In this document: positions 5,372 through 23,676 of the stretch, in pieces
Numbering within the stretch: the first letter of the stretch is position 1
How the letters are laid out: each line of letters begins with the position of its first letter
Source: an uncultured Methanospirillum sp.
GTDB lineage: Archaea; Halobacteriota; Methanomicrobia; Methanomicrobiales; Methanospirillaceae
Assembly: GCF_963668475.1 (NCBI RefSeq)
Contig: NZ_OY764544.1
Span: forward strand, 2,728,001 to 2,792,000
Direction: 5' to 3'
DNA: 64,000 bases
Made by a program: the position numbers and the translations under genes
The notes under the pieces: generated by a model
Database searches by the model: none
What the model saw: the letters and a program-made list of their open reading frames with translations, nothing else
Told to the model about the DNA's origin: nothing

Positions 5372-6226
5372 TTACTTCAGGAATGAGTGAGAGGCTGCAC
5401 GCTCTTGCAACCTTTTAACATACAGATCAAGAATCTGTTCATGTTCACCGAGACCTACAGAATCTACAGTTACGATATATCCTTCGTTCTCCAATGCTTT
5501 TTGCCATGAGTTCTGGTTCATAGCACCAGATATCTGTATCCATGTGTGAATACCAGGTACAACGGCCAATGGAACGAGACGAACCTGCTTTGCTCCAATA
5601 TGGTGCAACCGTGACTTGACTTTTTCAAAGTCCGGATACCCATCAATAGTTCCTATACAGATTCTCCCATTTTTTGTACAATCATCGAGAATCATCTGGA
5701 ATTGACAGAGAGAGGGATCTGCACCACCTTCAGTTGTGGGCATAACTAATACCACAGCCTCATCTTTTCCTGGTTTGTATATTGAGTTTATGACATCTGC
5801 TGCCTCGATAAACTCTCCTGCTGTCATCACAAGTGGTTTACTGATAAGTATCCCATCAAATCCTAAAGTGCCGTGAGTACCTGCCAGATCGTTAAGTGCT
5901 GTTATGATCGGGTATAACTCATGATACTGAGATCCTGCTGTTAAAAAAAGGGGTTGAACAACGATCTGAGAATGACCCTTCTCAATAAGGGTTGAGAGAG
6001 CTCCAAGTGGGCCTGAAATCTGTTCACCCTGTTCACTCAGAACAAGACGAACTGCTTCAGAACTGAAAGCATATGTTACTTCAGCCTTAGGAAAGGCTGC
6101 CTGCATCTTTTTAACTGATCTATCAACAACAGATCTACCTTCAGTCTGCGTTGTTCCCATGGTCACAATAAGGATTGCACCATGAGATTCGAGTTTCTTT
6201 CCATGTCCATCCATGATCATTACCAT
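5372..6226 (-). CDS. Divergent CbiK-type (anaerobic sirohydrochlorin cobaltochelatase) family protein
   Basis: A 284-residue soluble protein matching the CbiK chelatase family over its length: an N-terminal AILIVTMGTTQTEGR strand-loop and the repeated half beginning VRLVPLAVVPGIHTW. CbiK inserts Co2+ into sirohydrochlorin, using one metal-binding His in each half. The second-half His is kept (PGIHTW), but the first-half position, usually in a GHG/HGTE-like motif, reads MPTTEGGADPS with no His. The enzyme may therefore use another metal, another substrate or have a non-catalytic role. It is transcribed away from the cbiZ operon across a shared 300-base promoter region, which suggests a linked function. 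Start could be any of three closely spaced ATGs at 6226-6214. Confidence 0.75.
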   Translation of the reverse strand: MVMIMDGHGKKLESHGAILIVTMGTTQTEGRSVVDRSVKKMQAAFPKAEVTYAFSSEAVRLVLSEQGEQISGPLGALSTLIEKGHSQIVVQPLFLTAGSQYHELYPIITALNDLAGTHGTLGFDGILISKPLVMTAGEFIEAADVINSIYKPGKDEAVVLVMPTTEGGADPSLCQFQMILDDCTKNGRICIGTIDGYPDFEKVKSRLHHIGAKQVRLVPLAVVPGIHTWIQISGAMNQNSWQKALENEGYIVTVDSVGLGEHEQILDLYVKRLQERAASHSFLK

Positions 6227-6528
6227 AACCTTATAATATCAAATTCAATGAGCTCGATGAACTTAAAAATATTACTATTTATCATACAAAGAATTGACTA
6301 TAAAATCCAATTTGAATACTTAGAATTTTAAAGAATTTATAGAGTTAATTCTAAAAATTCAAAAATTGTTTGCTTTTTTTCAAATAGGTGATGTTTAAAT
6401 ATTGAATCTGAATGAAGGTATTGACTTAAAAATATTTGTATATGTCTCGTATAGAATAAAGCAAATTATTTTTAGTATAGTAAATAATATTTTAGTACAC
6501 GTACGTATCTATTTCAGGGGAAAATCCT
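6227..6528. promoter_or_regulatory. Divergent promoter region between cbiK-like gene and cbiZ operon
   Basis: Very AT-rich 302-base region serving both transcription directions. It has a 13-base direct repeat, ACTTAAAAATATT, at 6262-6274 and 6424-6436, and two near copies of ATTTTAGTA about 20 bases apart (near 6470-6496) just upstream of cbiZ. TATA-like tracts are plentiful, so none can be assigned with certainty. The repeats could be sites for a shared metal- or corrinoid-responsive regulator; that is inference only. Confidence 0.4.
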
Positions 6529-7674
6529 GTGTCTGATATTAAAAATTATAGTAATATTACACAAAACTCTCTCCAATTGATTCATAAAACAAGTTGTGGC
6601 GAGGAGATCTACAGGAATGAGGATACTATTGTCGTTCGTCTCCCGAAAAATAGGAATGCGATCACTACCTCGTATGTGAATGGCGGATACAAGGAAAACC
6701 TTCAGGCTGTATTCAACCACGAACCAAAACCTACGAAGGGGCATTGTGCTCATGACCTGGAAGGCGGAAGCGTTGAAGCATACATCAGGATCCATGCCGG
6801 GCGACTGGGTCTGGATCCTGATAGGGTGGCGGCTATGATGACTGCTGCAAAAATGCGCAATGCATCAATAAACACCCGTTCTTTTAGAAATCTTGAAGTC
6901 ACTGCCATTGTCACAGCAGGAATAGAAGTCAACGGTGGAAGAGCAGGTGATCCTGCATCCTGGCATGAAGAGGATGGAAAAACGGTCTATGTTGGCGGAA
7001 CGATCAACACTATCATTCTTGTCAACTGTCATCTTCCGGCCCATACACTGGCCAGGGTTATCATGACAGCTACAGAGGCAAAAACTGTGACGATTCAAGA
7101 GCTTATGGCTCCAAGTCGGTATTCAACCGGAATTGCCACCGGTTCAGGGACTGATCAGATATCTGTGATCTCAAACATGGATAGCCCTAATACCATAACC
7201 TGGGCAGGAAAACATTCAAAACTAGGTGAACTGGTTGCTACCTGTATTATCGAGGCTACGAAACAGGCACTTTTCCTTCAGACTAATATAAGCCCTGATT
7301 CCCAGCGTGATATGCTGGTTCGTTTAGGAAGATTTGGCGTCAATGAAGACCAGTACTGGGCATGTGCATCTTCTCTCGAAGGTGAGAACAAGAGAGATAT
7401 TTTCATCAGAAATTTACGTGATTTTTCCCGGGATCCCTGTGTTGTCGCCATTACCGCTTCTGTGCTTCACATCATGGACGAGATCACATGGCAATTGATA
7501 CCAGAACAGTCAGGAAAAATCACTGCATCTGCCATGATGAAAGTATTACCCGGTATGCTCCAGATTACTCATCCTGATATCAATACTCTCATTGACGAAC
7601 GTGCAAGTATTCTTGAAAATTGGATCTGTGTGACTTCCTGGTGTGTTAAAAACGGAGGTAGAGGATTCACATGA
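6529..7674 (+). CDS. cbiZ: Adenosylcobinamide amidohydrolase (CbiZ) with C-terminal extension
   Basis: CbiZ removes the aminopropanol (or lower-ligand) arm from corrinoids to give adenosylcobyric acid, the archaeal salvage step. Family motifs seen include AITTSYVNGGY near residue 45, TAGIEVNGGRAGDP, the GTINTIILVN strand, and YSTGIATGSGTDQISV followed by GKHSKLGELVA. The start is GTG at 6529 behind a GGGG tract. The protein has 381 residues, while the CbiZ domain needs only about 230. The last 130 residues (from about LFLQTNISPDSQRD) form an extension I do not recognise. It is the first gene of the reductase/chelatase operon and overlaps chlI by four bases. Confidence 0.88.
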   Translation: MSDIKNYSNITQNSLQLIHKTSCGEEIYRNEDTIVVRLPKNRNAITTSYVNGGYKENLQAVFNHEPKPTKGHCAHDLEGGSVEAYIRIHAGRLGLDPDRVAAMMTAAKMRNASINTRSFRNLEVTAIVTAGIEVNGGRAGDPASWHEEDGKTVYVGGTINTIILVNCHLPAHTLARVIMTATEAKTVTIQELMAPSRYSTGIATGSGTDQISVISNMDSPNTITWAGKHSKLGELVATCIIEATKQALFLQTNISPDSQRDMLVRLGRFGVNEDQYWACASSLEGENKRDIFIRNLRDFSRDPCVVAITASVLHIMDEITWQLIPEQSGKITASAMMKVLPGMLQITHPDINTLIDERASILENWICVTSWCVKNGGRGFT

Positions 7675-8711
7675 CAAGTCCTCGACCAGTTTACCCGTTT
7701 GGTGCTATTGTCGGCCAGGAAGCCATGAAGGATGCCATTCTCGCCAATATTGTTTTTCCTTCTATTGGTGGTGTCCTTATCAGGGGTGAGAAAGGAACAG
7801 CTAAATCCACCTCTGTTCGGGCTGCAGCCGATCTCCTCCCTGAACGGCGAGTAATTTCAGGCTGTCAGTTCAGATGTGAGGTATCAAATACTCGTGATCT
7901 CTGTTCATTTTGCCGGGAAAGGATATTAAATGGCGATCCAGCCACCGAACTGGTTCGTATGAGGGTTGTTGAACTGCCACTCTGTGCAACAGAAGATCGT
8001 GTTGCAGGTACTCTGGACATCGAGCATGCCTTAACCCGGGGAATTAAAAAGTTTGAACCCGGTGTTTTGGCGAACGCAAATGGCAATATTCTGTACGTAG
8101 ATGAGGTAAATCTCCTTGATGATCATATTGTTGATCTTCTTCTGGATGCTGCTGCTATGGGGGTTAACTTTGTTGAGCGTGAAGGGATCTCATACTCCCA
8201 TCCCGCACGATTTCTGTTAGTTGGGACGATGAATCCTGAAGAAGGAGATCTCCGTCCTCAACTGCTTGATAGATTCGGACTTGTGGTAGATGTTGAAGGA
8301 GAGAAAGAGAGTGCTCTCAGGTCAGAAGTTGTGAAAAGGAGGCTTGACTATGAGGCTGATCCTGAAGGATTCTGCCAACGGTTTAAACCTGAGCAGCAGG
8401 TATATCGCGATCAGATAACCAGTGCAAAACAACTGATGGCTGATATAAAACCAGATGACCTTCTGATTCACACTGCTGTGAAGATCTCCCTGATGCTCGG
8501 AGTTGATGGTCATCGATCAGATATCACCCTTGTAAAGACTGCACTGGCATTTGCAGCTCTAAATGGCATGAACACGGTAAACCAGAATCATGTACTCAAA
8601 GCTGCATCATTATCTCTTCCACACCGAATGAGGCGAAGGCCGTTTGAAGAGAGCAGGATTGACTTCTCATCAGTCAGGGCATTGATTGAAGAATGCTATC
8701 AAGCCTCATGA
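7671..8711 (+). CDS. Magnesium-chelatase-type AAA ATPase, ChlI/BchI subunit
   Basis: A 346-residue AAA+ ATPase of the ChlI/BchI/CobS-like chelatase group. Walker A is GEKGTAKST near residue 38, Walker B is ILYVDEVNLLDD, and the GTMNPEEGDLRPQLLDRFG sensor region is conserved. Between them is a four-cysteine insert (CQFRC...CSFC, about residues 64-82), common in archaeal members and probably binding a metal. This ATPase would form a ring with the ChlD protein encoded next and drive metal insertion by a large CobN/BchH subunit, such as the one at 19836-23582. ATG overlaps the cbiZ stop, so the two are translationally coupled. Confidence 0.92.
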   Translation: MTSPRPVYPFGAIVGQEAMKDAILANIVFPSIGGVLIRGEKGTAKSTSVRAAADLLPERRVISGCQFRCEVSNTRDLCSFCRERILNGDPATELVRMRVVELPLCATEDRVAGTLDIEHALTRGIKKFEPGVLANANGNILYVDEVNLLDDHIVDLLLDAAAMGVNFVEREGISYSHPARFLLVGTMNPEEGDLRPQLLDRFGLVVDVEGEKESALRSEVVKRRLDYEADPEGFCQRFKPEQQVYRDQITSAKQLMADIKPDDLLIHTAVKISLMLGVDGHRSDITLVKTALAFAALNGMNTVNQNHVLKAASLSLPHRMRRRPFEESRIDFSSVRALIEECYQAS

Positions 8712-10579
8712 TGAATGGTTACCCTTTTCCAGGAGTAGTCGGGCAGGAGATGGCTAAAAAAGCACTTCTCTGTGCTCTCGTGCACTCAGACATTCATTCA
8801 GTCCTGATCAAGGGCAATCCTGGAACAGCGAAATCCACACTGGTGCGGTCAATTGAGAGTGTTGATCAAGATCGCAAGATCCTGACCATCCCTCATAACA
8901 TCACGTTGGATCGGTTAGTCGGGATGGTCGATCTTGAGGGTACTATCCGTTCAGGAATGATAACATCTTCACCCGGTATGCTTGAGCAGGGAGATGGCCA
9001 TATTCTCTATGTTGATGATTGCAACCTGATGGATGAGGCTATCATCAGCACAATCCTTTCTGCTGTAGATACAGGATTTTTCTCTCTTGAGAGGGAGGCT
9101 TTATCCCAGGTTATTGCATCCCAATTTCTCTTTCTTGCAACCATGGATCCTGAAGAAGGAGCATTAACATCAGGCCAGATGGACCGCTTTGATCTTTGTG
9201 TTTCTCTCGATCCCATCGAAAACGAAGAGCAGCGGGCTGCAATCATCAAAAATGCATTCTTGTTTGAACAGAACCCAGTTGAGGCCATCTCCAGGTTTAT
9301 GCCTGAAGTGAGGACTTTACAGATTTTGGTGGGAAAAGCGAGAGAACGTCTTCCATATGTCAGTATCCTATCAGGTCTGGATGATCTGGTATCGGCAATC
9401 TGTGATGAACTGCATGTTTCTGGTCATCGGGGTGATATCGCTGTATCCAGAACTGCTAAAGCTCTTGCAGCTCTTGATGAAAGGGACGAAGTCAATTTTG
9501 AGGACATAAGACTTGCAGCATTGTTTGCCCTGCAGCATCGGCGAAATGATACCGATCCAAACGCTCCTCAAACTGCCCCCAAGCCGGATCTCTCTTCAAA
9601 ACAACCGGGTCCACCAGATAATACCGATAGAGAATATCATTCTTCTTCTCAAGATCCACAGAATAAGCCAGATTTCTCCCACAATAAAAATGAATCAACA
9701 AAATCACCACCTCCCTCTCCACGTGAAGAGATCTTTGATATTGGATCTCCTTCTGACGTAATCAGATTCCTGAATGAAAAGAGTATTTCTGTAACAAAAA
9801 AACAAAAAAGTGGTAGACGAACCAGAATTATCAGTCAGGACAAAACCGGTCACTACCAATCATTTCGTCTGCCCGTACGTAATCGAAATGACATTGCTAT
9901 TGATGCAACTCTTCGTGCAGCAGCACCGTACCAACGCTTTAGAAGACGAAATGGTGTCGCAATATCTGTCTGTCGTGAAGATATCAGGGAGAAGATCAGA
10001 GAGAAGAAGATCGCTCATACGATTCTCTTTCTCGTTGATGCAAGTGGTTCCATGGGCGTCAGGAGAAGAATGGTTGCAGTGAAAGGAGCCATTCTTGCCC
10101 TTCTGACAGATGCATATCAGAAACGGGACCGTGTGGGTCTCATGACATTTAGAGGAAATGGAGCAGACCTTCTGCTCCCACCTACTCGAAGCACAGAGAT
10201 TGCTGTCCGGATGCTCCGAACAATTCCAACCGGTGGGATGACTCCACTTGGTATCGGTCTGTTTGAAGCATATGAACTTCTCAACAGAGGAATGTATGCC
10301 GGTGCTGGTGAGAACAAGACTATTATTCTTCTGACCGATGGAAGGGCGAACGTAGCAATACATGACGGTTCACCGTATGAGGAACTGGATGAAATTACCA
10401 AAAAAATTGCAGATACTCACATCAGATTTGTTGTAGTTGACACCGAACAGGGTTTTCCCCGTCTTGGACGGGCCCGAATGCTGGCTGAAGATCTTAGAGC
10501 CTCGTATGTTCAACTTGACGAACTTGGTAACAGAGGTCTTGCCGGTTCCGTTCACCGCCTTCTTGATACAACGGGGTAA
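8708..10579 (+). CDS. Magnesium-chelatase-type ChlD/BchD subunit with vWA domain
   Basis: A 623-residue protein with three parts. An AAA+ domain (residues about 1-280) keeps an intact Walker A (KGNPGTAKST) but has Asp-Asp in place of the Asp-Glu of Walker B (ILYVDDCNLMD). A Pro/Ser/Asn/Asp-rich linker follows at about 285-345. A C-terminal von Willebrand A domain has the MIDAS pieces DASGSMG, GGMTPLG and LLTDGRA. This is the ChlD plan, the platform subunit linking the ATPase ring to the catalytic subunit. The chosen ATG overlaps the chlI stop (ATGA); an in-frame ATG at 8693 is possible. Confidence 0.92.
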   Translation: MMNGYPFPGVVGQEMAKKALLCALVHSDIHSVLIKGNPGTAKSTLVRSIESVDQDRKILTIPHNITLDRLVGMVDLEGTIRSGMITSSPGMLEQGDGHILYVDDCNLMDEAIISTILSAVDTGFFSLEREALSQVIASQFLFLATMDPEEGALTSGQMDRFDLCVSLDPIENEEQRAAIIKNAFLFEQNPVEAISRFMPEVRTLQILVGKARERLPYVSILSGLDDLVSAICDELHVSGHRGDIAVSRTAKALAALDERDEVNFEDIRLAALFALQHRRNDTDPNAPQTAPKPDLSSKQPGPPDNTDREYHSSSQDPQNKPDFSHNKNESTKSPPPSPREEIFDIGSPSDVIRFLNEKSISVTKKQKSGRRTRIISQDKTGHYQSFRLPVRNRNDIAIDATLRAAAPYQRFRRRNGVAISVCREDIREKIREKKIAHTILFLVDASGSMGVRRRMVAVKGAILALLTDAYQKRDRVGLMTFRGNGADLLLPPTRSTEIAVRMLRTIPTGGMTPLGIGLFEAYELLNRGMYAGAGENKTIILLTDGRANVAIHDGSPYEELDEITKKIADTHIRFVVVDTEQGFPRLGRARMLAEDLRASYVQLDELGNRGLAGSVHRLLDTTG

Positions 10580-10582
10580 AGT

Positions 10583-11830
10583 ATGAAACTATCATCAAAA
10601 AATGTATTGTTATACCTGGCTTTGATCCTGATAATACTGATTGTCATAACCATAGCAGTAACAGGTCTCAAGCAACATGTTCCTATTACTCAGAATCAAT
10701 CAAAATTTCCCCTTCACGATCTAGGTTCATGTGATCTGTTTCCCGACAAAATTTCTCTAGATTATGCAACTGGATTCTCTGTTGAATATCATGGGACATA
10801 CAAAGTTGTCAGGATTCATGACCCCTGGGGAAGAGAAGGAGAGAACCGGACATATCTTCTTGTTCAGAGGGGGGAAGAAGTTCCTTCCGGTTACCAAAAC
10901 GCCAGAATATTTCATATTCCAGTAAAATCGGTTGTAACCCTCTCATCTGTTCACCTTCCAAATATTGTGGCTCTCAATGAAACCAGCTCCATTGTCGGAC
11001 ACAATGGAATAAGCACTGTGTATAGTGAAGAATTTCACCGATTCGCTGATGCAGGAAAGATTGCGGAGGTCGGAAGCGGGACATTATCGATGGACACCAC
11101 TCTCCAGACTGAAAAACTGATAGAACTTGAACCGGATATCGTCTTCTGTTCTGCTAATGGAAACCCGGAGTATGATAACCAGAATAAACTATTAGAAGCA
11201 GGACTTTTTCCCGCTGTTACAGGGGATTGGATGGAGAATCATCCTCTTGCTCGTGCAGAATGGATCAAATACTATGCTCTGTTTTATAACAAAGAAAAAG
11301 CTGCAACGGAGTTTTTTGATCAGATTAAAGCAAATTATACTGCACTCTGCGAAAAGACATCCGATATATCCAAGAAGCCAACTCTTTTTGCTGGAATAGA
11401 GTACCAGGGAACGTGGTATGCACCAGGTACGAACAGTTATGTTGCACGCCTATTCTCCGACGCAGGTGGAGATTATGTTCTTATCAATAATTCAGATAAA
11501 GGAGACTCAATTCTTGATTTTGAAAGTGTATATGATACCTCCTCCAATGCTGAATACTGGCTGAACACAGGATATGGTAACAATATTCAGGAGATGCTGG
11601 CTCTCGATTCCAGGTATAACAAATTCAGTGCTGTCAAAAACGGAAATGTGTATCAGTTTAATGCTCGTGTGAATACATTTGGAGGAAACGATTACTGGGA
11701 GTCGGGAATTATTCACCCTGACATCATTCTTGCTGATATTGTCAAGATTCTTCATCCTGAAGTTCTTCCAGACCACGAACTCTATTATTACAGCCGGATA
11801 GGTTCAAATCAGCCCGGAGTAATCGTATGA
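10583..11830 (+). CDS. Membrane-anchored ABC substrate-binding protein, corrinoid/siderophore type
   Basis: A 415-residue periplasmic-binding protein of the BtuF/FepB (cluster A-II) class. An N-terminal membrane segment (about residues 8-28, LYLALILIILIVITIAVTGL) with no lipobox after it suggests an uncleaved anchor. The two lobes are visible: PNIVALNETSSIVGH with LIELEPDIVF in the first, and FAGIEYQGTWYAPG with the usual NGNVYQFNAR in the second. It follows chlD by three bases and overlaps the permease, so it is part of the reductase operon. The ligand is unknown; context argues for a tetrapyrrole. Confidence 0.88.
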   Translation: MKLSSKNVLLYLALILIILIVITIAVTGLKQHVPITQNQSKFPLHDLGSCDLFPDKISLDYATGFSVEYHGTYKVVRIHDPWGREGENRTYLLVQRGEEVPSGYQNARIFHIPVKSVVTLSSVHLPNIVALNETSSIVGHNGISTVYSEEFHRFADAGKIAEVGSGTLSMDTTLQTEKLIELEPDIVFCSANGNPEYDNQNKLLEAGLFPAVTGDWMENHPLARAEWIKYYALFYNKEKAATEFFDQIKANYTALCEKTSDISKKPTLFAGIEYQGTWYAPGTNSYVARLFSDAGGDYVLINNSDKGDSILDFESVYDTSSNAEYWLNTGYGNNIQEMLALDSRYNKFSAVKNGNVYQFNARVNTFGGNDYWESGIIHPDIILADIVKILHPEVLPDHELYYYSRIGSNQPGVIV

Positions 11831-12900
11831 ATCTTGAATGTGAGCAGAAAGGGGAGAGTATAAAGCGGTTCATAATTGTTGTACCGCTCATAATCGGTCT
11901 TCTTCTTCTCTGTTTTCTGCTTGATCTTATGCTTGGTTCAGTGAACATTCCTCCTGATGCCTTGTTCACGATTGTAACCGGGGGGTTTGTGAAAACAACC
12001 TGGATGAACATCTTCTGGGATTGGAGGATGCCAAAAGCTATTACTGCGGTATTTGCAGGAGGGGCACTGGCACTATCAGGCCTGCTTATGCAGACCTTTT
12101 TCCGCAACCCTCTAGCTGATCCGTACATTCTGGGTATCAGTTCAGGAGCGAGTCTTGGTGTTGCCTTTGTTATGATGTCTGCCGGATTTTGCGGAGTTGG
12201 GTCTATCTTTGCCAGTGTTGGTCTTCTTGGAGACATGAGCATATCAGTTGCCGCAACTCTGGGTGCATTTATTGTATTACTCCTGATTCTCCTGATATCA
12301 TCGAAAGTTCAGAGTAATATCACGATTTTGATACTCGGAATTATGGTGTCATACTTCAGCGGAGCTATTGTAACGATACTTCTCCAGTTTGCTGATCAAT
12401 CAAGTATGCATTCTTATTCACTCTGGACATTTGGAAGTTTTTCTGGTGTTACCTGGAGTCAGATTCCAATATTTGTTCTTCTTGTCCTCATTGGGTACAT
12501 CATCTCGATCTGTTCGGTCAAATCACTCAATGCCCTTCTCCTGGGAGAACAGTATGCACAGAGTATGGGGATGAACTATACTCGGATCAAAACTGTGATC
12601 ATAGTAACAACAGCCTTGCTTGCCGGGGGGGTTACTGCATTTTGTGGTCCGGTGGGGTTTTTAGGTATTGCAATTCCCCATCTCTGCCGTGCTATCTTTG
12701 TAACTGCAGATCACCGTTGCCTTGTTCCAGGATGTATCCTTGTTGGAGGGATTATTGCCCTGTGTACTGATATCATCTCCCACGTTCCAGGCACAGATAT
12801 CGTCCTCCCAATCAATGCAATCACTGCTCTCTTCGGAGCGCCGATAGTGATATGGGTTATCATACGAGGAACACGGTTTGGAAGGGGGGTTACTACATGA
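11827..12900 (+). CDS. ABC importer permease, FecCD/BtuC family
   Basis: A 357-residue permease with about ten hydrophobic helices, the usual layout for BtuC/FecCD proteins. Recognisable motifs are WRMPKAITAVFAGGALALSG near residue 66, FFRNPLADPYILGISSGASL after it, and CGPVGFLGIAIPHLCR, the family coupling region. It starts inside the binding-protein stop (ATGA) and ends inside the ATPase start (ATGA), giving a tightly coupled importer set. It would bring a corrinoid, haem or other metal chelate across the membrane. Confidence 0.93.
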   Translation: MNLECEQKGESIKRFIIVVPLIIGLLLLCFLLDLMLGSVNIPPDALFTIVTGGFVKTTWMNIFWDWRMPKAITAVFAGGALALSGLLMQTFFRNPLADPYILGISSGASLGVAFVMMSAGFCGVGSIFASVGLLGDMSISVAATLGAFIVLLLILLISSKVQSNITILILGIMVSYFSGAIVTILLQFADQSSMHSYSLWTFGSFSGVTWSQIPIFVLLVLIGYIISICSVKSLNALLLGEQYAQSMGMNYTRIKTVIIVTTALLAGGVTAFCGPVGFLGIAIPHLCRAIFVTADHRCLVPGCILVGGIIALCTDIISHVPGTDIVLPINAITALFGAPIVIWVIIRGTRFGRGVTT

Positions 12901-13937
12901 AAGGCTCTTCCATCCTGAGTTGTTCTAACCTTACCATCGGATACGGAGGTCAGAAGTCAGGGGCCCGAGAGATATCAAAGAATCTGAATCTACAACTGAA
13001 CCGGGGAGAACTTGTATCGCTTGTAGGCCCGAACGGGGCAGGGAAATCTACACTGATTCGGACACTAACCGGGATCCAGCCACCTCTCTCTGGAGAGGTG
13101 AGACTTTGTGATATACCAATAGGAGAAATAAGCGAACAGGACCGGGCTCGGATGCTCAGTGTTGTCCTAACGACTCCGGTTCAGACTGGATATCTTACTG
13201 CATTTGATGTCGTTGCACTGGGCAGGTTTCCCTATACAAACTGGGCAGGCAGGCTGACTGAGTCTGATCGACAGATAGTAATCTCCTCCCTATCGTCGGT
13301 TGGGGCATCAGAACTGACATACCGATTCATTCATGAGATGAGTGATGGTGAGCGACAGAAGGTGATGATCGCCCGTGCTCTTGCACAGGAACCTGAACTG
13401 ATGGTTCTTGACGAACCTACAGCATTTCTTGATCTGACCCATAAGATTGAGACGATGCGAATTCTACGGCTGGTTGCTCAGAAAACCCGAAAGTCAATCC
13501 TGCTCTCAACTCATGATCTGAACCTGGCCATCAGATGTTCAGATCAACTCTGGATCTTAAACAAGCAGGGGGATCTCGTATCAGGGACACCAGAAGATCT
13601 CGTCCTCTCCGGGATTTTTGGATCAGCCTTTGAGATTGATGGTGTTCATTTTGACCCAACCAGGGGAGAATTTACTATCCCAATTGACAAAAAAGGGACA
13701 TTCTCTCTCCAAGCTTCAGAATCAGTAGAACGTATCTGGACATTATATGCCCTTGAACGAATCGGTTTAGTCCCTGAAGATGAAGAACAGGCAGATATAT
13801 CGATTACTCTGAATTACGATGCACAGCAACCGGTCTGGAGTCTTTCTCATTCAACAGGCAACCAGCAATGCGGGAGTATTTGCGAACTGGTGGAAGGAAT
13901 ATCAGCCACGCTTACCACAGAAGGTGGTCTCCATTAA
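12897..13937 (+). CDS. ABC importer ATPase with C-terminal extension
   Basis: A 346-residue ATPase of the BtuD/FecE class. Walker A is GPNGAGKST (about residues 45-53), Walker B is LMVLDEPTAF, and the H-loop is STHD. The signature motif reads MSDGERQKVMIA, with Asp in place of the usual Gly (LSGGE). After the normal domain (about 255 residues) there is an extension of about 90 residues (from DGVHFDPTRGEF) that I cannot assign. Its last bases overlap the start of the NifHD gene in another frame. The start at 12897 (ATGA overlap with the permease) is preferred to an upstream in-frame codon. Confidence 0.9.
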   Translation: MKGSSILSCSNLTIGYGGQKSGAREISKNLNLQLNRGELVSLVGPNGAGKSTLIRTLTGIQPPLSGEVRLCDIPIGEISEQDRARMLSVVLTTPVQTGYLTAFDVVALGRFPYTNWAGRLTESDRQIVISSLSSVGASELTYRFIHEMSDGERQKVMIARALAQEPELMVLDEPTAFLDLTHKIETMRILRLVAQKTRKSILLSTHDLNLAIRCSDQLWILNKQGDLVSGTPEDLVLSGIFGSAFEIDGVHFDPTRGEFTIPIDKKGTFSLQASESVERIWTLYALERIGLVPEDEEQADISITLNYDAQQPVWSLSHSTGNQQCGSICELVEGISATLTTEGGLH

Positions 13938-16104: not shown

Positions 16105-17381
16105 GCCTTGATCCAGACGGATTTATTGGAGTTCTTCTTGCCATAGAGGGGATAGCTGATGCCCGTGCAGTGATGAACGGGCCTACCGGGTGCAGGGGAA
16201 ATCCCGCGTACTTCTCTGACCGCCATTTTCCTCGTGAGAATTCTCTGAATCGTCGTTCATTTGAGGAACCCTTCTTTTTCGGTCAGTCGCGGATTCCCTG
16301 TACATACCTAGACAGTGATGATTATATCCATGGATCTACGGATAAACTCCAAGAGATTCTTCCTCTTATCGCCCAGAAGGGTGATGCTTTCATGGCTGTG
16401 GTTAATTCACCTGGTGCTTCACTTATCGGAGATGATCTGAACCGGTTTCTTGTAGATGCAGGGCTGGACCACTGCTGTATGGCTTTTGAGGGTGCACCCT
16501 ACTCTCTCCCGCTGTCTGAAGGATTTGATCAGGCGATGGTTGAGATTCTCAAATGGCTTCAACTCAACCGGCTTACTGGTGGAAAAAACAGGGTTAATCT
16601 GCTTGGTATTTCCTTAATTCAGAAGTACTGGCAGGAACATGTTGCAGTGTTAAAACGTATCTGTAGTCTGATGGGGCTTTCAGTGGTTGCAGTTCCTGGT
16701 GGTGGCTGCAGTGTTTCAGACTTACGGGAGTCCACTACAGCATCGTTCAATATTGTGGTACATTCAGAGTACTGTAAAAAAATCGCAGAGTTTTATGAGT
16801 CAGAGTTTGGAATCCCAACAATTTACCCTCATAGTGGCGCACCGATCGGGTTTAGCCCGACTGAACAATGGATCAAAGAAATTGCCAAGGTGACCGGTTG
16901 TGATCCAACTCGTGCATTAGATGCGATAAAGCAGGATCGGATCCATGCATATCACCAGATTGCCAGATATCACCATGAAGCCGGATATCCGAAAGGAACT
17001 ACTGTTGCTATCCGGGCAGATGCCTCTTTTGCTTATCCACTCGTGTCATGGGTCTATGAATATCTTGGGATGATCCCTGTATCGATTGAATGTTTAGACG
17101 GGTCTGATCCCGTAATGATTAATTATATCCACAATTTTCTATCAGAATATGGGTTATCATCAGCACTTGAACAGTCTGCAGCAGATGCACGGGCAGACTT
17201 CTTCTTCGGAGATGGAATAATCGGAAAGGATCTGGAACTATCTGGCCGCTGCAGAAGATCAGTTGAGATCTATAACCGAACTACAGGAGAGATAGAGTTT
17301 ACCAGAAAAGGGTTTCTTGGGGGAGATGGAGTGTTGTATATTCTGGAAAAGATCTTTGATGCTATCAGAGAGTTTCCATGA
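16101..17381 (+). CDS. NifK/BchB-like subunit of the nitrogenase-like reductase
   Basis: A 426-residue member of the nitrogenase component 1 family, starting in the stop of the NifHD gene (ATGA). It opens like NifK just before the P-cluster region, and has one of the cluster cysteines, C31 in MNGPTGCRGN. The position corresponding to the first NifK cysteine is lost, and the third site reads NSPGASLIGDD, with Ser instead of Cys. The later Rossmann-like parts (VNLLGISLIQKYW, VVAVPGGGCSVSDL, GIPTIYPHSGAP) are in order. With three Cys from the NifD part and one here, the heterodimer could hold a [4Fe-4S] cluster, as in the protochlorophyllide reductase complex. It is the last gene of the operon. 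Confidence 0.87.
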   Translation: MSLDPDGFIGVLLAIEGIADARAVMNGPTGCRGNPAYFSDRHFPRENSLNRRSFEEPFFFGQSRIPCTYLDSDDYIHGSTDKLQEILPLIAQKGDAFMAVVNSPGASLIGDDLNRFLVDAGLDHCCMAFEGAPYSLPLSEGFDQAMVEILKWLQLNRLTGGKNRVNLLGISLIQKYWQEHVAVLKRICSLMGLSVVAVPGGGCSVSDLRESTTASFNIVVHSEYCKKIAEFYESEFGIPTIYPHSGAPIGFSPTEQWIKEIAKVTGCDPTRALDAIKQDRIHAYHQIARYHHEAGYPKGTTVAIRADASFAYPLVSWVYEYLGMIPVSIECLDGSDPVMINYIHNFLSEYGLSSALEQSAADARADFFFGDGIIGKDLELSGRCRRSVEIYNRTTGEIEFTRKGFLGGDGVLYILEKIFDAIREFP

Positions 17382-17478
17382 AATAGCGGTTTGTATCTTT
17401 ATCCAGATATCCTGCATCTGAAAAACAGATGGTCGATTTTACCTTGAAAAAATATAGTCCGATAGTAGCGTATCAGGA

Positions 17479-17724: not shown

Positions 17725-18023
17725 CGTCTTCTCTCCCGATAATTTATCCATTCATTCTCATCCGGATAATAACATGTTACTATTCTTAAATGATCTCTGC
17801 ACATTCCTATTACGATATGCAGTGAGATATTGTTAGCTGTTGAAAGGAGAAGATATGATGGGCAGGGATGATCGTCTTCATACGATTCAATCACCTCTCC
17901 AAATAATATCGCTTCTTCTAACTGTGAAGTTGAGATTCCACGTTCAGCCATTCTATTTCGTGCATGGCTGGTGATCAGATATGAATCTGACTTGATGTAG
18001 TCATTAATATCCTGATACTGCAA
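17721..18023 (-). CDS. DUF4258-type protein, possible toxin partner
   Basis: A 100-residue protein with the DUF4258 pattern: SHARNRMAERGIS near residue 20, then AILFGEVIESYEDD, and a C-terminal beta section with RIVTCYYPD. DUF4258 proteins resemble RelE/MqsR-like toxins and commonly precede a YgiT antitoxin, as here. The pair sits in the gap between the two convergent halves of the tetrapyrrole locus and is probably a passenger. Confidence 0.82.
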   Translation of the reverse strand: MQYQDINDYIKSDSYLITSHARNRMAERGISTSQLEEAILFGEVIESYEDDHPCPSYLLLSTANNISLHIVIGMCRDHLRIVTCYYPDENEWINYRERRR

Positions 18024-18104
18024 AATTTCTCCTTACAATTACATATAGGCGGGCAATGTGATAAATATCAGGGTTTTCATTCGTTCATAAAGCCCTAAAG
18101 ATGA

Positions 18105-18830
18105 TTATACCGTCACCTTCCTGAACATATATCCTGCGATCATCATCACTACTGCTGCAAAAAATGTCAGTACGGTAATTGGAATAACCGGAACAACTCC
18201 GGTTCCAAGATCTCTGATAGCGTCTATAGCATAACTGAGTGGGTTAACCCTAGCTATCATCCGGAGCCATGCTGGCATAACATCGTATGGCATCAGGGCA
18301 CTGGAGGTGAAGAACAATGGCATTGTGACCATGGCTGTGAACGCAGCGAATGAATCATGGTCATTCAGATAGAGAGCAATGGTTGTAGAAAATGCTGCAA
18401 TAAAGACGCCGAACAGAAAGAGGATAAGATACGTCATGGCATACTGCATCGGGCTCAGGATAGACGCTCCAATCAGGACCGCAAGAATCAGGATGATGGT
18501 TGTCTGGAGAATTCCCCTGATGGTAATGAAGAGAATCTTACTGACAAGGATACTCTCACGTGGAACAGGCATAGCTAAAAATTTGTTCAAAAATCCCAGG
18601 ATCTTATCAAACATGAGAAGTGAACCGCTTGATATACCGGCAGTCAGAATTGTCATCACCAGGATGCCTGGAGTGATAAAATCAAGGTAATTACCGGTGA
18701 AGTTCACCGGAAGGGTGAGACCCACAAAGAGAAGCCATGCAGCCGGAAGAATGAGAGTTGAGACCACACCAACCCTATATCTGATCCATCTGATAAAGTC
18801 CCGTTCCATATAGGTAAGAACTCCTCTCAT
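18105..18830 (-). CDS. ABC-2 type transporter permease (exporter)
   Basis: A 241-residue membrane protein with about six helices of the ABC-2 (DrrB/NodJ) type. The family sequence PLSYAIDAIRDL with a preceding MPYDVMPAWLRMIARVN is present near the C-terminus. The ATG at 18830 is preferred to an in-frame codon 33 bases upstream. An AGGAGG ribosome site lies six bases before it, and it overlaps the ATPase stop (ATGA). With the ATPase encoded upstream it forms an export system, co-transcribed behind the CobN-like gene, and could remove a tetrapyrrole intermediate or product from the cell. Confidence 0.9.
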   Translation of the reverse strand: MRGVLTYMERDFIRWIRYRVGVVSTLILPAAWLLFVGLTLPVNFTGNYLDFITPGILVMTILTAGISSGSLLMFDKILGFLNKFLAMPVPRESILVSKILFITIRGILQTTIILILAVLIGASILSPMQYAMTYLILFLFGVFIAAFSTTIALYLNDHDSFAAFTAMVTMPLFFTSSALMPYDVMPAWLRMIARVNPLSYAIDAIRDLGTGVVPVIPITVLTFFAAVVMMIAGYMFRKVTV

Positions 18831-19783
18831 GATCGCCTCCTGAGCATTAACCTGTACTTCCATTCTTCAAACCCGTTTGATTCCTCCTGTTTTCCAACAG
18901 ATTGCAAAAATACGTCATCCAGAGAAGGTTCATGAATAGACATCTCTCTGACTTTGTTTCCAGCCCTGCTCAAGGCATCTGCGAGAACCGGAAGGGCTTG
19001 ACGGCCATTTTCTGCAGTGAAAGACAATTCATTTCCAGACTTGCCGACAAACACAGGATCTTGAAGATCGATCTGATGATACTCTCCTTCAATGAGGACA
19101 GTGATAACATCCTTCATCAGATGTGATTTTAGTTCTGCAGGTCTCCCCATTGCCTGAATTTTACCATGACTGATGATCCCAACCCTGTCACAGAACCTGT
19201 CAGCCTCGTCCATATAATGCGTTGTGACAAAGATGGTCATCCCTTTCTTGTTCATCTCATGCAGATGTTCCCAGATGATCTTGCGGGCAGCTACATCAAG
19301 GCCGAGTGTAGGTTCATCAAGAAATATCACTTCCGGCTCATGTACGAGGGCCTCAGCAAGTTCAAGCCTGCGACGCATTCCTCCAGAGTAGGTCTTCGCC
19401 AGGTCATCGGCTCTGTCAGAGAGTTCCATCACGCCAAGAAGTTCGTCAACGCGGTCTTTGGGATTAGATATCCCATATAACTTCGCGAAGATGAGCATGT
19501 TCTCCCGTCCGGTCAGATTGGTATCAATCGCCATATCCTGGGGAACATAACTGAGACATCCTCTTACCTTATCAGGTTCTTGCAAGGTATCGTACCCACA
19601 GATGGATGCACTTCCTTTAGTCTGGGTGAGAAGTGTAGTGAGCATCAGAACTGTGGTCGTCTTCCCTGACCCGTTCGGCCCTAACAGACCAAATATCTCG
19701 TTATCAGCCGAAAAGGTAAGATTGTCAACGGCACAGAGTGTTCCAAACTCTTTTGTCAGATCACAGGTCTCAATTGCAGTCAT
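18827..19783 (-). CDS. ABC-2 exporter ATPase
   Basis: A 318-residue ATPase of the DrrA/NodI (daunorubicin-resistance) group. Walker A is GPNGSGKTTT, the signature TYSGGMRRRLELAEAL, and Walker B VIFLDEPTLGLD; a C-terminal domain of about 100 residues follows, ending in the usual PSLDDVFL. The start at 19783 (MTAIETCDLTKEFG) has GGAGTGAT seven bases upstream; an in-frame ATG at 19795 is less likely. It begins about 50 bases after the CobN-like gene, so the order of transcription is CobN, ATPase, permease. Confidence 0.92.
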   Translation of the reverse strand: MTAIETCDLTKEFGTLCAVDNLTFSADNEIFGLLGPNGSGKTTTVLMLTTLLTQTKGSASICGYDTLQEPDKVRGCLSYVPQDMAIDTNLTGRENMLIFAKLYGISNPKDRVDELLGVMELSDRADDLAKTYSGGMRRRLELAEALVHEPEVIFLDEPTLGLDVAARKIIWEHLHEMNKKGMTIFVTTHYMDEADRFCDRVGIISHGKIQAMGRPAELKSHLMKDVITVLIEGEYHQIDLQDPVFVGKSGNELSFTAENGRQALPVLADALSRAGNKVREMSIHEPSLDDVFLQSVGKQEESNGFEEWKYRLMLRRRS

Positions 19784-19835
19784 GGTTGGTATCACTCCCG
19801 ATATTCACAGTTTAAGAAAAAATCGCAGATCTGCC

Positions 19836-22800
19836 TCATTCTTCCCCTGCTCGTTCGAAGAATTCTTCTGACTCCAGATATATCTCCTGGAGTTTACGGA
19901 TAGTCTCCTCGTCTGTCTCCCAGAATCCCCGTTCATGAGCTTCAAGAAGCCTTCCTGAAATGCTGTGCAGGGCGTATGGATTATTCTCTTCTATCCACTG
20001 ACGATTATCTTCGTCAAAGAGGAAATGTCCGGCTGCAGCCTGGTATTCCCAGTCATCAACAGCATCAGAGGTGACATCCCACCCGAACATATAATCTATT
20101 GTATTGGTAACTTCCTGTACTCCCCTAAATCCATGCTGCTTAAGCCCCTCTATCCACCGTGGGTTGAGCACACGGCTTCTGAAGATAAACCTGATCTCTT
20201 CATCCAGAAGACGTGTTTTTACATTCTTTGGATCACATGCTTCTCCGATGACTGATACCGGATCCTTGTTGCCATACGCCTTTACACAGGCGTTCATCCC
20301 GCCAAGGAAGATGTAATCATCATCTACGTCAAGGATGTCCCACTCCTGGGAGACCCGGTTCTTTACTGTGGCGTCAAGTCTTGAGAACTGTTGTTTGAAG
20401 AGTTCGGTGCACTTCTCTCCTTTGAAATTTCTGCCATATGCATGAGCTCCCCAGGTGGTGTACACATCTGCCAGATCCCCTCTATCCTTCCATGCAGAGG
20501 CATGTACCACTTCTCCAACTGCACAACCATGGTTTCCGGGAGGATCACCAAATATTCGGATTAAGGCTTGATCCCGTGCCTCCTCTTCAGAAAATCCTTC
20601 TTTGATCTTTTCCACAAGGTCCTGTTTCAGATGGGCTGATAGGTAATTGAGATCATCAGATTCATCAAGAGAAGCGATGATCTCAACACCTTCATCGATC
20701 ATGTATACGAGATTTGGAAATGAATCGCGAAACAGTCCACTTATCCGCAGAGTAACATCGATACGTGGCCGACCAAGTTCCTTGGATGGTATCACCTCTA
20801 GTCCGGTTACTGCTCCTCCTCTGTCAGACCAGACCGGTTTCAATCCCATCAGCCAGAGAATATATGCGATATCATCTCCACCGGTCCGCATGGTATCGGT
20901 AGCCCAAACAACGATTCCAACCCGCTCTGGATACTCCCCCTTTTCTTCGATGTACCTCTCCATCATCTGGTCAGCCATAGCTTTTCCGGTCTGCCATGCA
21001 GCAGGAGTTGGGATTGAAGCAGGATCGATGGAGTAACAGTTTTTCCCAGTCGGCAGAAGGTGGACATTCCCACGGGTTGGATCACCACAGGGACCCGGTG
21101 GAACATATCCTGCATCCAATCCACGGACGAGGTTAGTCATCTCATCGGTTGTCTGCCTGACCCGGGGTATGACATCATCACAGATCCCGATGACTGATGC
21201 CTCAAGAGTCTGGTTTATGGGTCCATTTTCCTCCATGATCCTGGATAAGACTTCTTCCCGGTCATATCCGCATGAATCCATCACCATGATCAGTTCCTGG
21301 CTGCGTGTATCGATAAGATCGAGGAGTTCTCCATTCATGCGATTATATTGCTCATTGTATCTGGACGGATTGTCAAGGAGATCCTGAAGTGTGAGAGAGA
21401 GTGATTGTGCAACTCCGTCCCGGAGAGAAGGTATTTTTCCATTTTCCAGCCGGGTCAGAGCGTACACCATCTCTCTGAATCGATCGTCAACAGGGGGCTG
21501 TCCAAAGATATGCAGCCCGTCTTTTATGATTACATCCCTGACTTCGCAGAGATAATCATAAATACGCTCGGCAGATGCAGCAATCTCCGAAGCAGAAGCA
21601 TCTTCTGATAGTCCAAGGTCATTTGTCAGGTTCTGCTCTCGGACAATTCTGGCTACCTCCCTGATCAGATCATCTGCTTTCTGAGATTCGCCACCTCTTA
21701 CCGCACGGAGATATTCCTGAAGGATACTATCAAGATCTGTGAGATCTCCATACCCCTCTGCCCGCATCATGGCAGGTACCAGGTGATCGAGAAGAACAGC
21801 CCATGTCCTTCGTTTGGCCTGAATTCCTTCTCCTGGATCGTTCATGATATAGGGATAAAGATGAGGCATATCCTCGAGCACTACATCAGGGTAACACTCT
21901 TCAGAAAGAGCATTGCCTTTACCGGGAAGCCACTCAAGAGTTCCATGAGTTCCCATGTGAATGATAGCATGAGCACCAAAGTCATCTCGTATCCAGCGAT
22001 AATATGCGAGATACTGATGAGGCATCACCATGTCATTTGAATGAATAAGTGACTCAACTTTCTCGAATAATCCCCGAGGAGGCTGAATTCCAATAAAGAT
22101 ATTTCCAGTTAAGAGACCGGGAATGCAGATGTCCCCTTCTGCAGTCATGACATCCCCAGGTATAGAGCCCCAGTCGGCCGTTATTTTGTCCTGGTTCTTC
22201 TCAGGAATCTTTGAGAACCACTCATTATAACGGTCTTTTGATACCAGAGCCGCTGCACGATCCCTCATCTGCTCTTCAGAAAGGTATCGGGTATCGTTTG
22301 TAAGACCGGCTATCATGGCGTTGATCAGATCATTTCCGCTCTCAGGTATCTCACTGACAGAATACCCCTCTTCCTTGAGCCTGTATAGAACATCGATGAC
22401 ACTTTTGGGTGTATCCAGCCCTCCGGCATCCCCAAGGGCATCCATCTCCCCGGTGTACTGATACAGAAGAATGGCTACTTTTCGCTCTGATGGGGGTGTT
22501 TTTCGAAGTTCAGCCCATCTTCTTGCCATTGTTGCAATCCTCTCAGGACGTCCGGGTATCGGGATTGACATATTTTTTCTGCCATCAAGTTCTCCGGTTG
22601 TTCCAAGTGGGATTGCGATGATCTGTCCGTCAAATTCAGGCCAGATAACTCCTGAAGAGATCTCCATCGGAGAAAGACCTGCCTCATCATTCTGCCAAAC
22701 ATCATAGGGTCGGTACATGGTAATAGTCTGCAGAAGCGGGACATTCAGGTCATTGAAAAAGTTGTACACAGGATCGGTCTTTGTGCCATCATTTGGATCA

Positions 22801-23582
22801 GATAGAGAGATCTGGGAGAATGACATGTTGATGATCAAAACATCGATGATAGGTCTTCCATCTTTGATCAGGTATAAATCCATAATTTTTCGTATCCCTA
22901 TTGCACCGGTGATGGGATTGGGACTAGTTACCAGGAAAAATGGAAGTACATTCATCCCTTCGGCTTCGATAGCACGAATGAGAACATCAACTGTATGGAG
23001 ATTTTTTCTGACATAAAAAAACTGATGAAGTAAAACTCCGATAGTATGCTTTTTTGGATCAAGCCTGGTTACATGGGTCTTGAAATCATGGTTATCTGGA
23101 AGTGAAGGATGGTAAAAACCCTCTGTTGGTGGATACCTGATTGAAGGAAGCTCAATCCCGGAAACTCCCAGACATTTGCAGATACAGAGAAGCAGACTGA
23201 TGGTATTCTCGATTCCGCCCAGTTCGATTACAGCATGGATGTAGTCATACTCTTCATCAGTGAACGGAAAGAGACTTCTGAAGTCTTTCATCTCCTCAGG
23301 GACTGAACTACAGACAAACGTTGGTATCTTCAGTTCCTTTGCTGTAGTTATCAGTCTGTCAAACTTTTTGAAGTACGTGGAGCTTCCATGATTACTGATA
23401 ATGAGAAACTGGCATTCTCTCATCTCCCCGATGGCTTGGATAAATTTTTTTTCTTCAGAATCGAGGGCTTCTGATGTGGTCTGGGTGACCTGAAGATTTG
23501 TTTTATCTAATGTACTGGTAGAACAAGCCTCCAGTATCCATGGATTTTCTCCTGTACCCGCACTGATGTAAAATAATTTCAT
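19836..23582 (-). CDS. CobN/BchH-type metal chelatase large subunit
   Basis: A 1248-residue protein of the CobN/ChlH family, the catalytic subunit that binds the tetrapyrrole and metal. Key family sequence in the middle third is HMGTHGTLEWLPGKGNALS, followed by YIMNDPGEGIQAKRR. Later motifs are VVWATDTMRTGGDDIAYIL, PRIDVTLRISGLFRD, and GGMNACVKAYGNKDP. Length is that of a full CobN. CobN needs CobS/CobT-type or ChlI/ChlD-type partners; here ChlI and ChlD are encoded in the convergent operon. The family also includes nickel and unassigned chelatases, so the metal cannot be told. The start at 23582 (MKLFYISAGTGENPW) fits the family better than an upstream codon at 23621. Confidence 0.93.
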   Translation of the reverse strand: MKLFYISAGTGENPWILEACSTSTLDKTNLQVTQTTSEALDSEEKKFIQAIGEMRECQFLIISNHGSSTYFKKFDRLITTAKELKIPTFVCSSVPEEMKDFRSLFPFTDEEYDYIHAVIELGGIENTISLLLCICKCLGVSGIELPSIRYPPTEGFYHPSLPDNHDFKTHVTRLDPKKHTIGVLLHQFFYVRKNLHTVDVLIRAIEAEGMNVLPFFLVTSPNPITGAIGIRKIMDLYLIKDGRPIIDVLIINMSFSQISLSDPNDGTKTDPVYNFFNDLNVPLLQTITMYRPYDVWQNDEAGLSPMEISSGVIWPEFDGQIIAIPLGTTGELDGRKNMSIPIPGRPERIATMARRWAELRKTPPSERKVAILLYQYTGEMDALGDAGGLDTPKSVIDVLYRLKEEGYSVSEIPESGNDLINAMIAGLTNDTRYLSEEQMRDRAAALVSKDRYNEWFSKIPEKNQDKITADWGSIPGDVMTAEGDICIPGLLTGNIFIGIQPPRGLFEKVESLIHSNDMVMPHQYLAYYRWIRDDFGAHAIIHMGTHGTLEWLPGKGNALSEECYPDVVLEDMPHLYPYIMNDPGEGIQAKRRTWAVLLDHLVPAMMRAEGYGDLTDLDSILQEYLRAVRGGESQKADDLIREVARIVREQNLTNDLGLSEDASASEIAASAERIYDYLCEVRDVIIKDGLHIFGQPPVDDRFREMVYALTRLENGKIPSLRDGVAQSLSLTLQDLLDNPSRYNEQYNRMNGELLDLIDTRSQELIMVMDSCGYDREEVLSRIMEENGPINQTLEASVIGICDDVIPRVRQTTDEMTNLVRGLDAGYVPPGPCGDPTRGNVHLLPTGKNCYSIDPASIPTPAAWQTGKAMADQMMERYIEEKGEYPERVGIVVWATDTMRTGGDDIAYILWLMGLKPVWSDRGGAVTGLEVIPSKELGRPRIDVTLRISGLFRDSFPNLVYMIDEGVEIIASLDESDDLNYLSAHLKQDLVEKIKEGFSEEEARDQALIRIFGDPPGNHGCAVGEVVHASAWKDRGDLADVYTTWGAHAYGRNFKGEKCTELFKQQFSRLDATVKNRVSQEWDILDVDDDYIFLGGMNACVKAYGNKDPVSVIGEACDPKNVKTRLLDEEIRFIFRSRVLNPRWIEGLKQHGFRGVQEVTNTIDYMFGWDVTSDAVDDWEYQAAAGHFLFDEDNRQWIEENNPYALHSISGRLLEAHERGFWETDEETIRKLQEIYLESEEFFERAGEE

Positions 23583-23676
23583 AAAATAACCAGCCATTGC
23601 AAAAAGTTTGAGTGAATACAATTTGGCTTGAGGCAGGTAAAGATTTTTTTATTTATTGCAAATAAACTTACATGAA

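Follow-up and report, generated by a model that had tools for sequence, protein, structure and literature searches.

A nitrogenase-like NifHD-NifK pair in a Methanospirillum gene cluster as a candidate ATP-driven corrinoid reductase

We analysed a 64,000-nucleotide stretch of DNA from an uncultured Methanospirillum sp. (contig NZ_OY764544.1; hereafter the window), which covers bases 2728001-2792000 of a single-contig genome of 3.93 Mb. It carries a gene cluster encoding a NifH-NifD fusion protein (NifHD), a NifK-like protein, a BtuFCD-type importer and a CobN-ChlI-ChlD chelatase. The cluster is best read as a set for the uptake, metallation and activation of corrinoids (vitamin B12), in which NifHD-NifK would act as an ATP-driven reductase taking the corrinoid from Co(II) to Co(I); we find this reading as a whole evenly balanced. 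Taken separately, a corrinoid is very probably the substrate class of the pair, and cobalt reduction as its reaction is a proposal that could fall either way. The original prediction for this DNA was a pathway for the import, metal insertion and ring reduction of a tetrapyrrole. The linked set is retained here; cobalamin riboswitches and the gene neighbours of relatives move the substrate from "a tetrapyrrole" to corrinoids, and ring reduction becomes only one option, cobalt reduction being the better fit to the neighbours.

The relatives were obtained by scanning a NifK alignment against 84,980 species genomes. The scan returned 137 relatives, and the best 80 of the 137 were kept, which correspond to 79 distinct loci. 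Rows with the fusion were distributed over seven phyla (Methanobacteriota, Bacillota, Thermoplasmatota, Spirochaetota, Thermodesulfobacteriota, Actinomycetota and Bacteroidota) and SAR324, with taxa as given in the record titles and many of the rows being metagenome-assembled genomes (MAGs).

The riboswitch scan covered 44 of the 45 bacterial loci (L115 was left out; 0.628 Mb). It identified 25 cobalamin riboswitches (RF00174) in 14 loci against 1.6 expected, which is ~16 times a background of 114 matches in ~45 Mb (2.53 per Mb; 2 of the 114 under the gathering score) taken from 12 of these genomes, mostly picked for a riboswitch near the pair. With an operon defined as genes on the same strand separated by gaps of <250 bases, a riboswitch leads the NifHD-containing operon in six loci (L094, L129, L140, L144, L145 and L146), or about four independent cases given that L140/L144 and L145/L146 are near relatives. 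The leader operons include one gap of 246 bases in L094 and one of 209 in L140, and a short open reading frame (ORF) on the opposite strand overlaps the riboswitch in L140 and L146. The riboswitch of L145 ends ~165 bases 5' of NifHD, with no ORF of 90 amino acids intervening. In Labilibaculum filiforme (L129), the 12 kb surrounding NifHD-NifK contain four cobalamin riboswitches. A motif search upstream of 33 archaeal genes returned only A/T-rich words.

The gene neighbours of the relatives point in the same direction. At least one of ten corrinoid families was present in 32/79 loci and in 2/38 control stretches (L168 and L177), with a Fisher value of 5.5e-5 that is not a clean probability, as the loci are related. 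The positions of the control stretches were chosen manually, for the most part on contigs already in the analysis, with L176 dropped for lying beside a cluster, and the gene-family references were drawn from the same loci as those tested. When loci with a riboswitch only were added by hand, a corrinoid link was seen in 40/79. In a spirochaete (L101, with L109 alike) the Pfam-checked operon reads PduO-BtuFCD-NifHD-NifK-CobU-TIM barrel-CobT-CobS. Elsewhere, the operon mates of the pair include a CbiA-type protein (L131), DUF71 immediately upstream (L096 and L105), and an S subunit of energy-coupling factor (ECF) type together with DUF4430 (L140, where EcfT was read by eye). CobN and BtuFCD accompany the pair in L119, and early tetrapyrrole-like and cbi genes lie beside it in L121 (by eye). 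DUF71 is a family predicted to have a role in B12 salvage, as described in the part of PMC3541065 that bears on it.

Within the order Methanomicrobiales, a corrinoid family was found in 18/19 stretches with the fused family and in 0/20 other nitrogenase-like loci, a comparison that partly counts the CobN and CbiZ of the cluster itself. Two of the 19 stretches (L053 and L061) are halves of a single genome, L060 was dropped, and L201 is among the 20 comparison loci. L060, from a Methanospirillum genome, lies outside the fused family and shows separate NifH, NifK-like and NifD-like genes along with several FecCD/BtuF-type transporter genes. L201 (genome G152) encodes a 718-residue ORF with its NifH match at the C-terminal side (residues 441-688), possibly a fusion in the other domain order, within an otherwise unfused nitrogenase-like group.

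The conservation of the cluster was then considered across the same order. NifK was searched in 232 genomes, of which 55 gave a match at E 1e-10, and close relatives were found in 19 genomes including its own, with 37-71% identity outside it; these provided 20 stretches, one genome being split over two contigs. The stretches contained the reductase (NifHD in 18, NifK in 19), the importer (BtuF 15, BtuC 13, BtuD 15), the chelatase (ChlI 11, ChlD 12, CobN 15, some CobN being partial and those of L054, L057 and L061 pieces at contig ends) and the exporter (ATPase 10, permease 11), as well as CbiZ (12), the CbiK-like protein (8), a 5'-nucleotidase-like protein (7), a TIM-barrel protein (5) and CobO (2), with absences partly due to contig ends. 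No CobN was found within the 20 kb taken from the single-contig genome G114. The NifHD labels in these stretches, and the NifH/NifD labels in the neighbour listing, rest on the paralogue NifHD2 (L008) as reference; the ORF caller picks the longest ORF, by which the pair was lost in L102 and some ends were mislabelled. A search for the set in other archaeal genomes, proposed with the original prediction, thus found importer, CobN-ChlI-ChlD and reductase to be co-conserved in the order, and the gene set is not a chance assembly, since it recurs across Methanomicrobiales genomes. In L048 (15901-17299), a UshA-like gene next to CobN is broken into three pieces.

CobO, an adenosyltransferase, was found in 11 of the 18 genomes of the order that carry the pair and were searched (18 of the 19, G188 being left out). 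The distance between CobO and NifK in five single-contig genomes is 2.6, 11.6, 23.9, 4.6 and 57.2 kb, with a chance of 0.001 to 0.04 for each, these values not being independent. CobO shares the NifK contig in G116, G113 and G203 and lies on another contig in G111, G208 and G205. The genome of the window holds a second set ~20 kb upstream of the cluster, immediately before the window (L008), which encodes BtuF, BtuC, BtuD, a CobO-type adenosyltransferase, NifHD2, NifK2 and CbiZ2. NifHD2 is 50% identical to the NifHD of the window, and this CobO, 2.6 kb from NifK2, is the sole PF02572 member of the genome; the genome search found no PduO (PF01923) member.

In the aerobic B12 route, as outlined in PMC7242693, cobalt insertion by CobNST is followed by reduction of Co(II) to Co(I), for which CobR is responsible, and then by adenosylation through CobO. 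Here a low-potential reductase occurs together with a chelatase and, in some of the genomes, with CobO, and it therefore fits the slot of CobR between CobNST and CobO. In the scheme for this archaeon, for which we infer the corrinoid substrate, cobalt as the reduced atom, the kind of cluster and the sequence of steps, BtuFCD would take up a corrinoid and CbiZ, whose family removes the lower-ligand arm of cobinamide and cobamides, would strip that arm, with CobN-ChlI-ChlD putting cobalt into metal-free corrin. The NifH part would feed low-potential electrons in an ATP-driven manner, by way of an iron-sulfur cluster bound by three cysteines of D and one of K, and NifHD-NifK would reduce the cobalt of the imported or freshly metallated corrinoid from Co(II) to Co(I). 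The Co(I) corrinoid would then be available to an adenosyltransferase or to a later salvage step.

The pair is a member of the nitrogenase-like superfamily, with PF00142 and PF00148 over cut-off and the cluster cysteines present, and it forms a family of its own. The NifH halves of 71 fusions fell into one clade (Shimodaira-Hasegawa-like approximate likelihood ratio test, SH-aLRT, 97) that excludes NifH, CfbC, the unfused NifH paralogue, BchL and BchX, and the D halves into one clade (SH-aLRT 100; 22 rows) that excludes CfbD, BchN, BchY, NifD and NifE. Both trees are quick ones with long reference branches and were relied on solely for the separation from CfbC/CfbD; one row outside the family (K_L145_8736) was included in the D tree analysis and omitted from the cysteine counts. 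Among the curated models, CfbC scored best for the NifH half at 315.6 bits, under its cut-off of 402, and the CfbD model (TIGR03282) gave 37.9 bits for the cluster protein against a cut-off of 268.4. The models for dark-operative protochlorophyllide oxidoreductase (DPOR) and chlorophyllide oxidoreductase (COR) also stayed below their cut-offs (BchB 78 vs 490, BchL 191 vs 345, BchX 184 vs 331; N, Y and Z lower). An in-frame TGA had raised selenocysteine in a third NifK type as a candidate, which was rejected, the TGA of L058 being the stop codon that closes the match. A Methanomassiliicoccaceae MAG (L136) shows two tandem NifHD-NifK pairs, each cut by a contig end.

Of the five full NifH-type genes in the genome, two are the fusions; the others are nifH, CfbC and the one at L011, which goes with unfused D and K genes. 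Its CfbC lies at L010 (415.4 bits vs 402), and L155 groups CfbA (152.8 vs 120), CfbE (284.9 vs 250), CfbD (511.7 vs 268.4) and a cut-off piece of CfbB. With the cfb genes at these other sites, scores under the cut-offs and separate clades, we rejected an F430 paralogue, that is, orthology of NifHD/NifK to CfbC/CfbD; the earlier claim that the cluster is not the F430 route holds. The unfused H, D and K genes at L011 (1636000-1650000 of the genome), which we labelled NflH, NflD and NflK, have a LarE gene (286 bits vs 150) ~5 kb upstream, and their D and K proteins retain Cys275 and the three beta cysteines.

In the alignment, the positions of alpha Cys62, 88 and 154 were cysteine in 71/71 D halves, and the position of beta Cys95, equivalent to BchB Asp36, was cysteine in 75/75 NifK sequences, with beta Cys70 and Cys153 absent. 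A DPOR-like site with three ligands from D and one from K is predicted from this pattern. For the iron-molybdenum cofactor (FeMoco), 71/71 D sequences had no cysteine in the Cys275 column and a gap in the His442 column, the alignment being loose at Cys275, where 4/71 have a cysteine within four columns. As the FeMoco ligands are missing at the aligned positions, the pair does not qualify as an N2-reducing nitrogenase. The AlphaFold2 model of NifK (predicted local distance difference test, pLDDT, 86.9) has BchB of DPOR as its closest fold (9buo_D: Z 36.9, root-mean-square deviation 2.9, 395 aligned), followed by methylthio-alkane reductase (Z 32.8) and nitrogenase (~31). The model of the fusion (pLDDT 86.3; predicted TM-score 0.61) is confident within domains, and all of the 50 matches listed in its whole-chain fold search were of NifH type.

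The features of the cluster were collected in Table 1. ORF calls together with Pfam and profile scores agree with the gene list, ORFs and strands described earlier, namely an eight-gene operon on the + strand, a three-gene operon on the - strand and a divergent gene. The + strand genes from CbiZ through NifK overlap or are a few bases apart. The best Pfam families of the cluster proteins are all over cut-off, including the Mg_chelatase/AAA_lid_2 and VWA matches of ChlI and ChlD. A search of the Protein Data Bank (PDB) sequences with the BtuF-like protein gave no match at E 0.01, and hence no hint of its substrate. The phosphoesterase is a conserved neighbour, and giving it a role in the set is guesswork. 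The DUF4258 protein and its partner look by eye like a toxin-antitoxin pair and resemble a mobile insertion; a near copy (97% and 84% identical) adjoins NifHD-NifK in another Methanospirillum genome (L055 4656-5200).

Table 1. Features of the cluster, in window positions (5372-25368), with profile matches.
Feature	Position	Strand	Profile match or remark
CbiK-like protein (class II chelatase family)	5372..6226	-	PF06180 138 bits; divergent from + operon
CbiZ-type amidohydrolase	6529..7674	+	PF01955 191.3 bits vs cut-off 27
ChlI-type AAA+ chelatase subunit	7671..8711	+	TIGR02442 putative cobaltochelatase 460 bits > BchI-ChlI 392; both under curated cut-offs
ChlD-type AAA+/VWA chelatase subunit	8693..10579	+	TIGR02442 541 bits > BchD-ChlD 399; both under curated cut-offs
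BtuF-like substrate-binding protein	10583..11830	+	PF01497 (Peripla_BP_2) 76 bits
BtuC/FecCD-type permease	11827..12900	+	PF01032 (FecCD) 264 bits
BtuD-type ATPase	12852..13937 (start uncertain)	+	PF00005 (ABC_tran) 105 bits
NifH-NifD fusion (reductase + alpha subunit)	~13924..16104 (start uncertain)	+	Fer4_NifH PF00142 289 bits and Oxidored_nitro PF00148 212 bits, single chain
NifK-like beta subunit	16101..17381	+	Oxidored_nitro PF00148 145 bits
DUF4258 protein and 90-residue partner	17479-18023	-	between the two operons
ABC-2 permease (exporter)	18105..18863	-	PF01061 (ABC2_membrane) 104 bits
DrrA-like ABC ATPase of exporter	18827..19795	-	TIGR01188 311.0 bits, slightly < cut-off 312.45
CobN, cobaltochelatase large subunit	19836..23582	-	TIGR02257 949.5 bits > cut-off 822.05
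5'-nucleotidase/UshA-type phosphoesterase	23656..25368	+	PF02872 86.5 bits and PF00149 32.4 bits, over cut-off

The chelatase genes were compared with curated families as well. CobN passes the cobaltochelatase model (Table 1) and stays under the cut-off of the Mg-chelatase BchH model (778.5 bits vs 829); it gave 1227 bits in the search of the whole genome. A second CobN (L156) is accompanied by a fused ChlI-ChlD protein and BtuCD-like transporter genes, and no NifHD was found beside it in the 18 kb taken. The CbiK-like protein belongs to its family by PF06180. It scored 86 bits with the CbiK model NF047852 against a cut-off of 400. We take the two catalytic histidines of CbiK to be those in the GHG and GDH-type motifs; the former was replaced in 15/15 cluster rows (11 distinct loci) and the latter retained in 15/15, and an unrelated CbiK (L186) retains the GHG histidine. 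Judged by these residues, the protein is probably not an active cobaltochelatase. The closest PDB sequence is the heme-binding FetB (9b86), and a tetrapyrrole-binding or handling role is possible. The genome also encodes CbiD, which suggests de novo corrinoid synthesis.

Several observations weigh against a corrinoid reductase. No riboswitch was found in window positions 1-30000 or in the five archaeal stretches scanned, and none in 30/44 bacterial loci, including one subset of 11 that lacked them entirely. None of the ten corrinoid families occurs in 47/79 loci, many of them on short contigs. These include six Methanomassiliicoccales loci (L122, L126, L127, L138, L143 and L147) without any of the ten, in which CysK-, CysE- and CysS-type genes lie downstream of the pair, with a DtxR-type regulator in 4/6. 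In Syntrophomonas (L113 and L116), genes for a Fur-family regulator, a ZnuA-type binding protein and an ABC-3 permease come after NifHD-NifK (Pfam for L113). CobO is absent in 7/18 genomes of the order with the pair, one of them 99% complete (G072), and PduO is absent in 13/13 tested, including all seven without CobO; in these seven the product would have to be used otherwise, or an unrecognised adenosyltransferase exists. The de novo route indicated by CbiD leaves the source of metal-free corrin for CobN unexplained, and the model does not account for the exporter. To our knowledge, the tetrapyrrole enzymes of the nitrogenase superfamily reduce the ring and not the metal. Furthermore, the adenosyltransferase CobA is apparently served by free flavin with no specific reductase, according to the portion of PMC7242693 on this step.

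In the alternative nearest to the original prediction, NifHD-NifK would reduce a double bond of a corrin, a precorrin or another tetrapyrrole, as DPOR, COR and CfbCD do, and yield a modified corrinoid. The fold of NifK, closest to the ring-reducing BchB, and the DPOR-like ligand pattern speak for it, and CobN, ChlI, ChlD and a reductase together mirror the BchH-I-D plus BchLNB combination found on one Sulfitobacter plasmid. However, the enzymes linked to it in relatives (CobO, PduO, CobU, CobT, CobS and CbiZ) modify completed corrins, at the cobalt or the side chains, more than they act on a ring under construction, with L121 as an exception, and we consider ring reduction rather unlikely. An F430-directed role, a second route to F430 or to a modified F430 through CfbC/CfbD paralogues, draws on the preference of the NifH half for the CfbC model (316 bits). 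This is set against the sub-threshold score, the separate clade, the presence of D and K subunits in place of a single CfbD, the occurrence of the family in many bacteria and the location of the cfb genes, which together make it highly improbable.

The transport genes allow two further explanations. Imported corrinoids might undergo reduction and lose their cobalt; CobN-ChlI-ChlD would then re-metallate a different ring, and the spent one would leave through the ABC-2 exporter. Importer and exporter do co-occur (exporter genes in 10-11/20 stretches), and the CbiK-like protein, without its GHG histidine and nearest to FetB, could be a handler of such rings; yet the exporter is missing from several stretches with the pair, its permease was found only in Methanomicrobiales among L075-L153 save for one 20-bit match in L148, and we know of no enzymatic precedent, so that cobalt recovery appears improbable. 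Alternatively, the transported compound might be another metal complex, such as heme, a siderophore or a metallophore, with NifHD-NifK releasing the metal from it; the neighbouring B12 genes would then be a coincidence. The BtuF-like protein matches the heme-binding IsdE weakly (30 bits vs 299), other nitrogenase-like genes of the order lie near FecCD/BtuF-type transporters (L060, L205 and L210), and Fur and ZnuA are neighbours in Syntrophomonas. Against this stand the leader cobalamin riboswitches, the CobU, CobT, CobS and PduO genes that share operons with the pair in several phyla, and the CbiZ and CobN genes within the archaeal cluster; we regard it as slightly less credible still than cobalt recovery.

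The proposed corrinoid reductase can be compared with known systems. It resembles DPOR (BchL-BchN-BchB) with Mg chelatase (BchH-I-D) in having a three-part nitrogenase-like reductase beside a class I chelatase, a three-plus-one ligand site and a BchB-like NifK fold, and differs in the fusion of NifH to NifD, a cysteine at the BchB Asp36 position, a CobN-type large subunit, and corrinoid rather than chlorophyll neighbours. CfbC/CfbD is likewise a nitrogenase-like tetrapyrrole enzyme of methanogens, with CfbC as the nearest curated model to the NifH half, but its CfbD is a single subunit, its clade is separate and its genes lie elsewhere in this genome. With CobNST-CobR-CobO the cluster would share CobN, with ChlI/ChlD as counterparts of CobS/CobT, and the proposed order of insertion, reduction and adenosylation. 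It differs in that CobR is a flavoenzyme, while an iron-sulfur enzyme driven by ATP is proposed here, and in that the seven genomes noted above lack CobO. The RamA/RACE proteins, which differ from NifHD-NifK, share with the proposed reaction the ATP-dependent reduction of a corrinoid to Co(I), and act on protein-bound corrinoids. They are described as ATP-driven activators in the relevant part of PMC10418091.

The claim that no characterised example exists stands for the open-access literature, where we found no paper on what the fusion does, on its neighbours or on its riboswitches; subscription reviews may already have a name for it. The fusion itself is not new, as Dos Santos et al. described a nifH-nifE fusion accompanied by a nifN-like gene in 2012 (PMC3464626), with no function, neighbours or regulation given for it. 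For NflD as a single subunit, together with NflH and next to a gene for cobyrinate diamide synthase, the same paper suggested cobalamin reduction. MarHDK and NflHDK are reported to act on sulfur compounds.

What is new here is a testable corrinoid role for a nitrogenase-superfamily member of unassigned function, the superfamily and the fusion being known already. In a bolder and quite unlikely version, the pair would represent a separate, B12-dedicated functional class of the superfamily, spread over anaerobes from seven or more phyla and partly under riboswitch control; in methanogens, working with CobN-ChlI-ChlD, it would reduce the corrin ring, either in addition to the cobalt or in its place, and give an undescribed corrinoid that is exported or used. 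Chlorophyll and F430 synthesis and reactions on sulfur compounds are the known roles of superfamily members other than nitrogenase, and a member tied to B12, if true, would add another major tetrapyrrole class. Its combination with CobN-ChlI-ChlD is similar to the chlorophyll module and has implications for the origin of that module.

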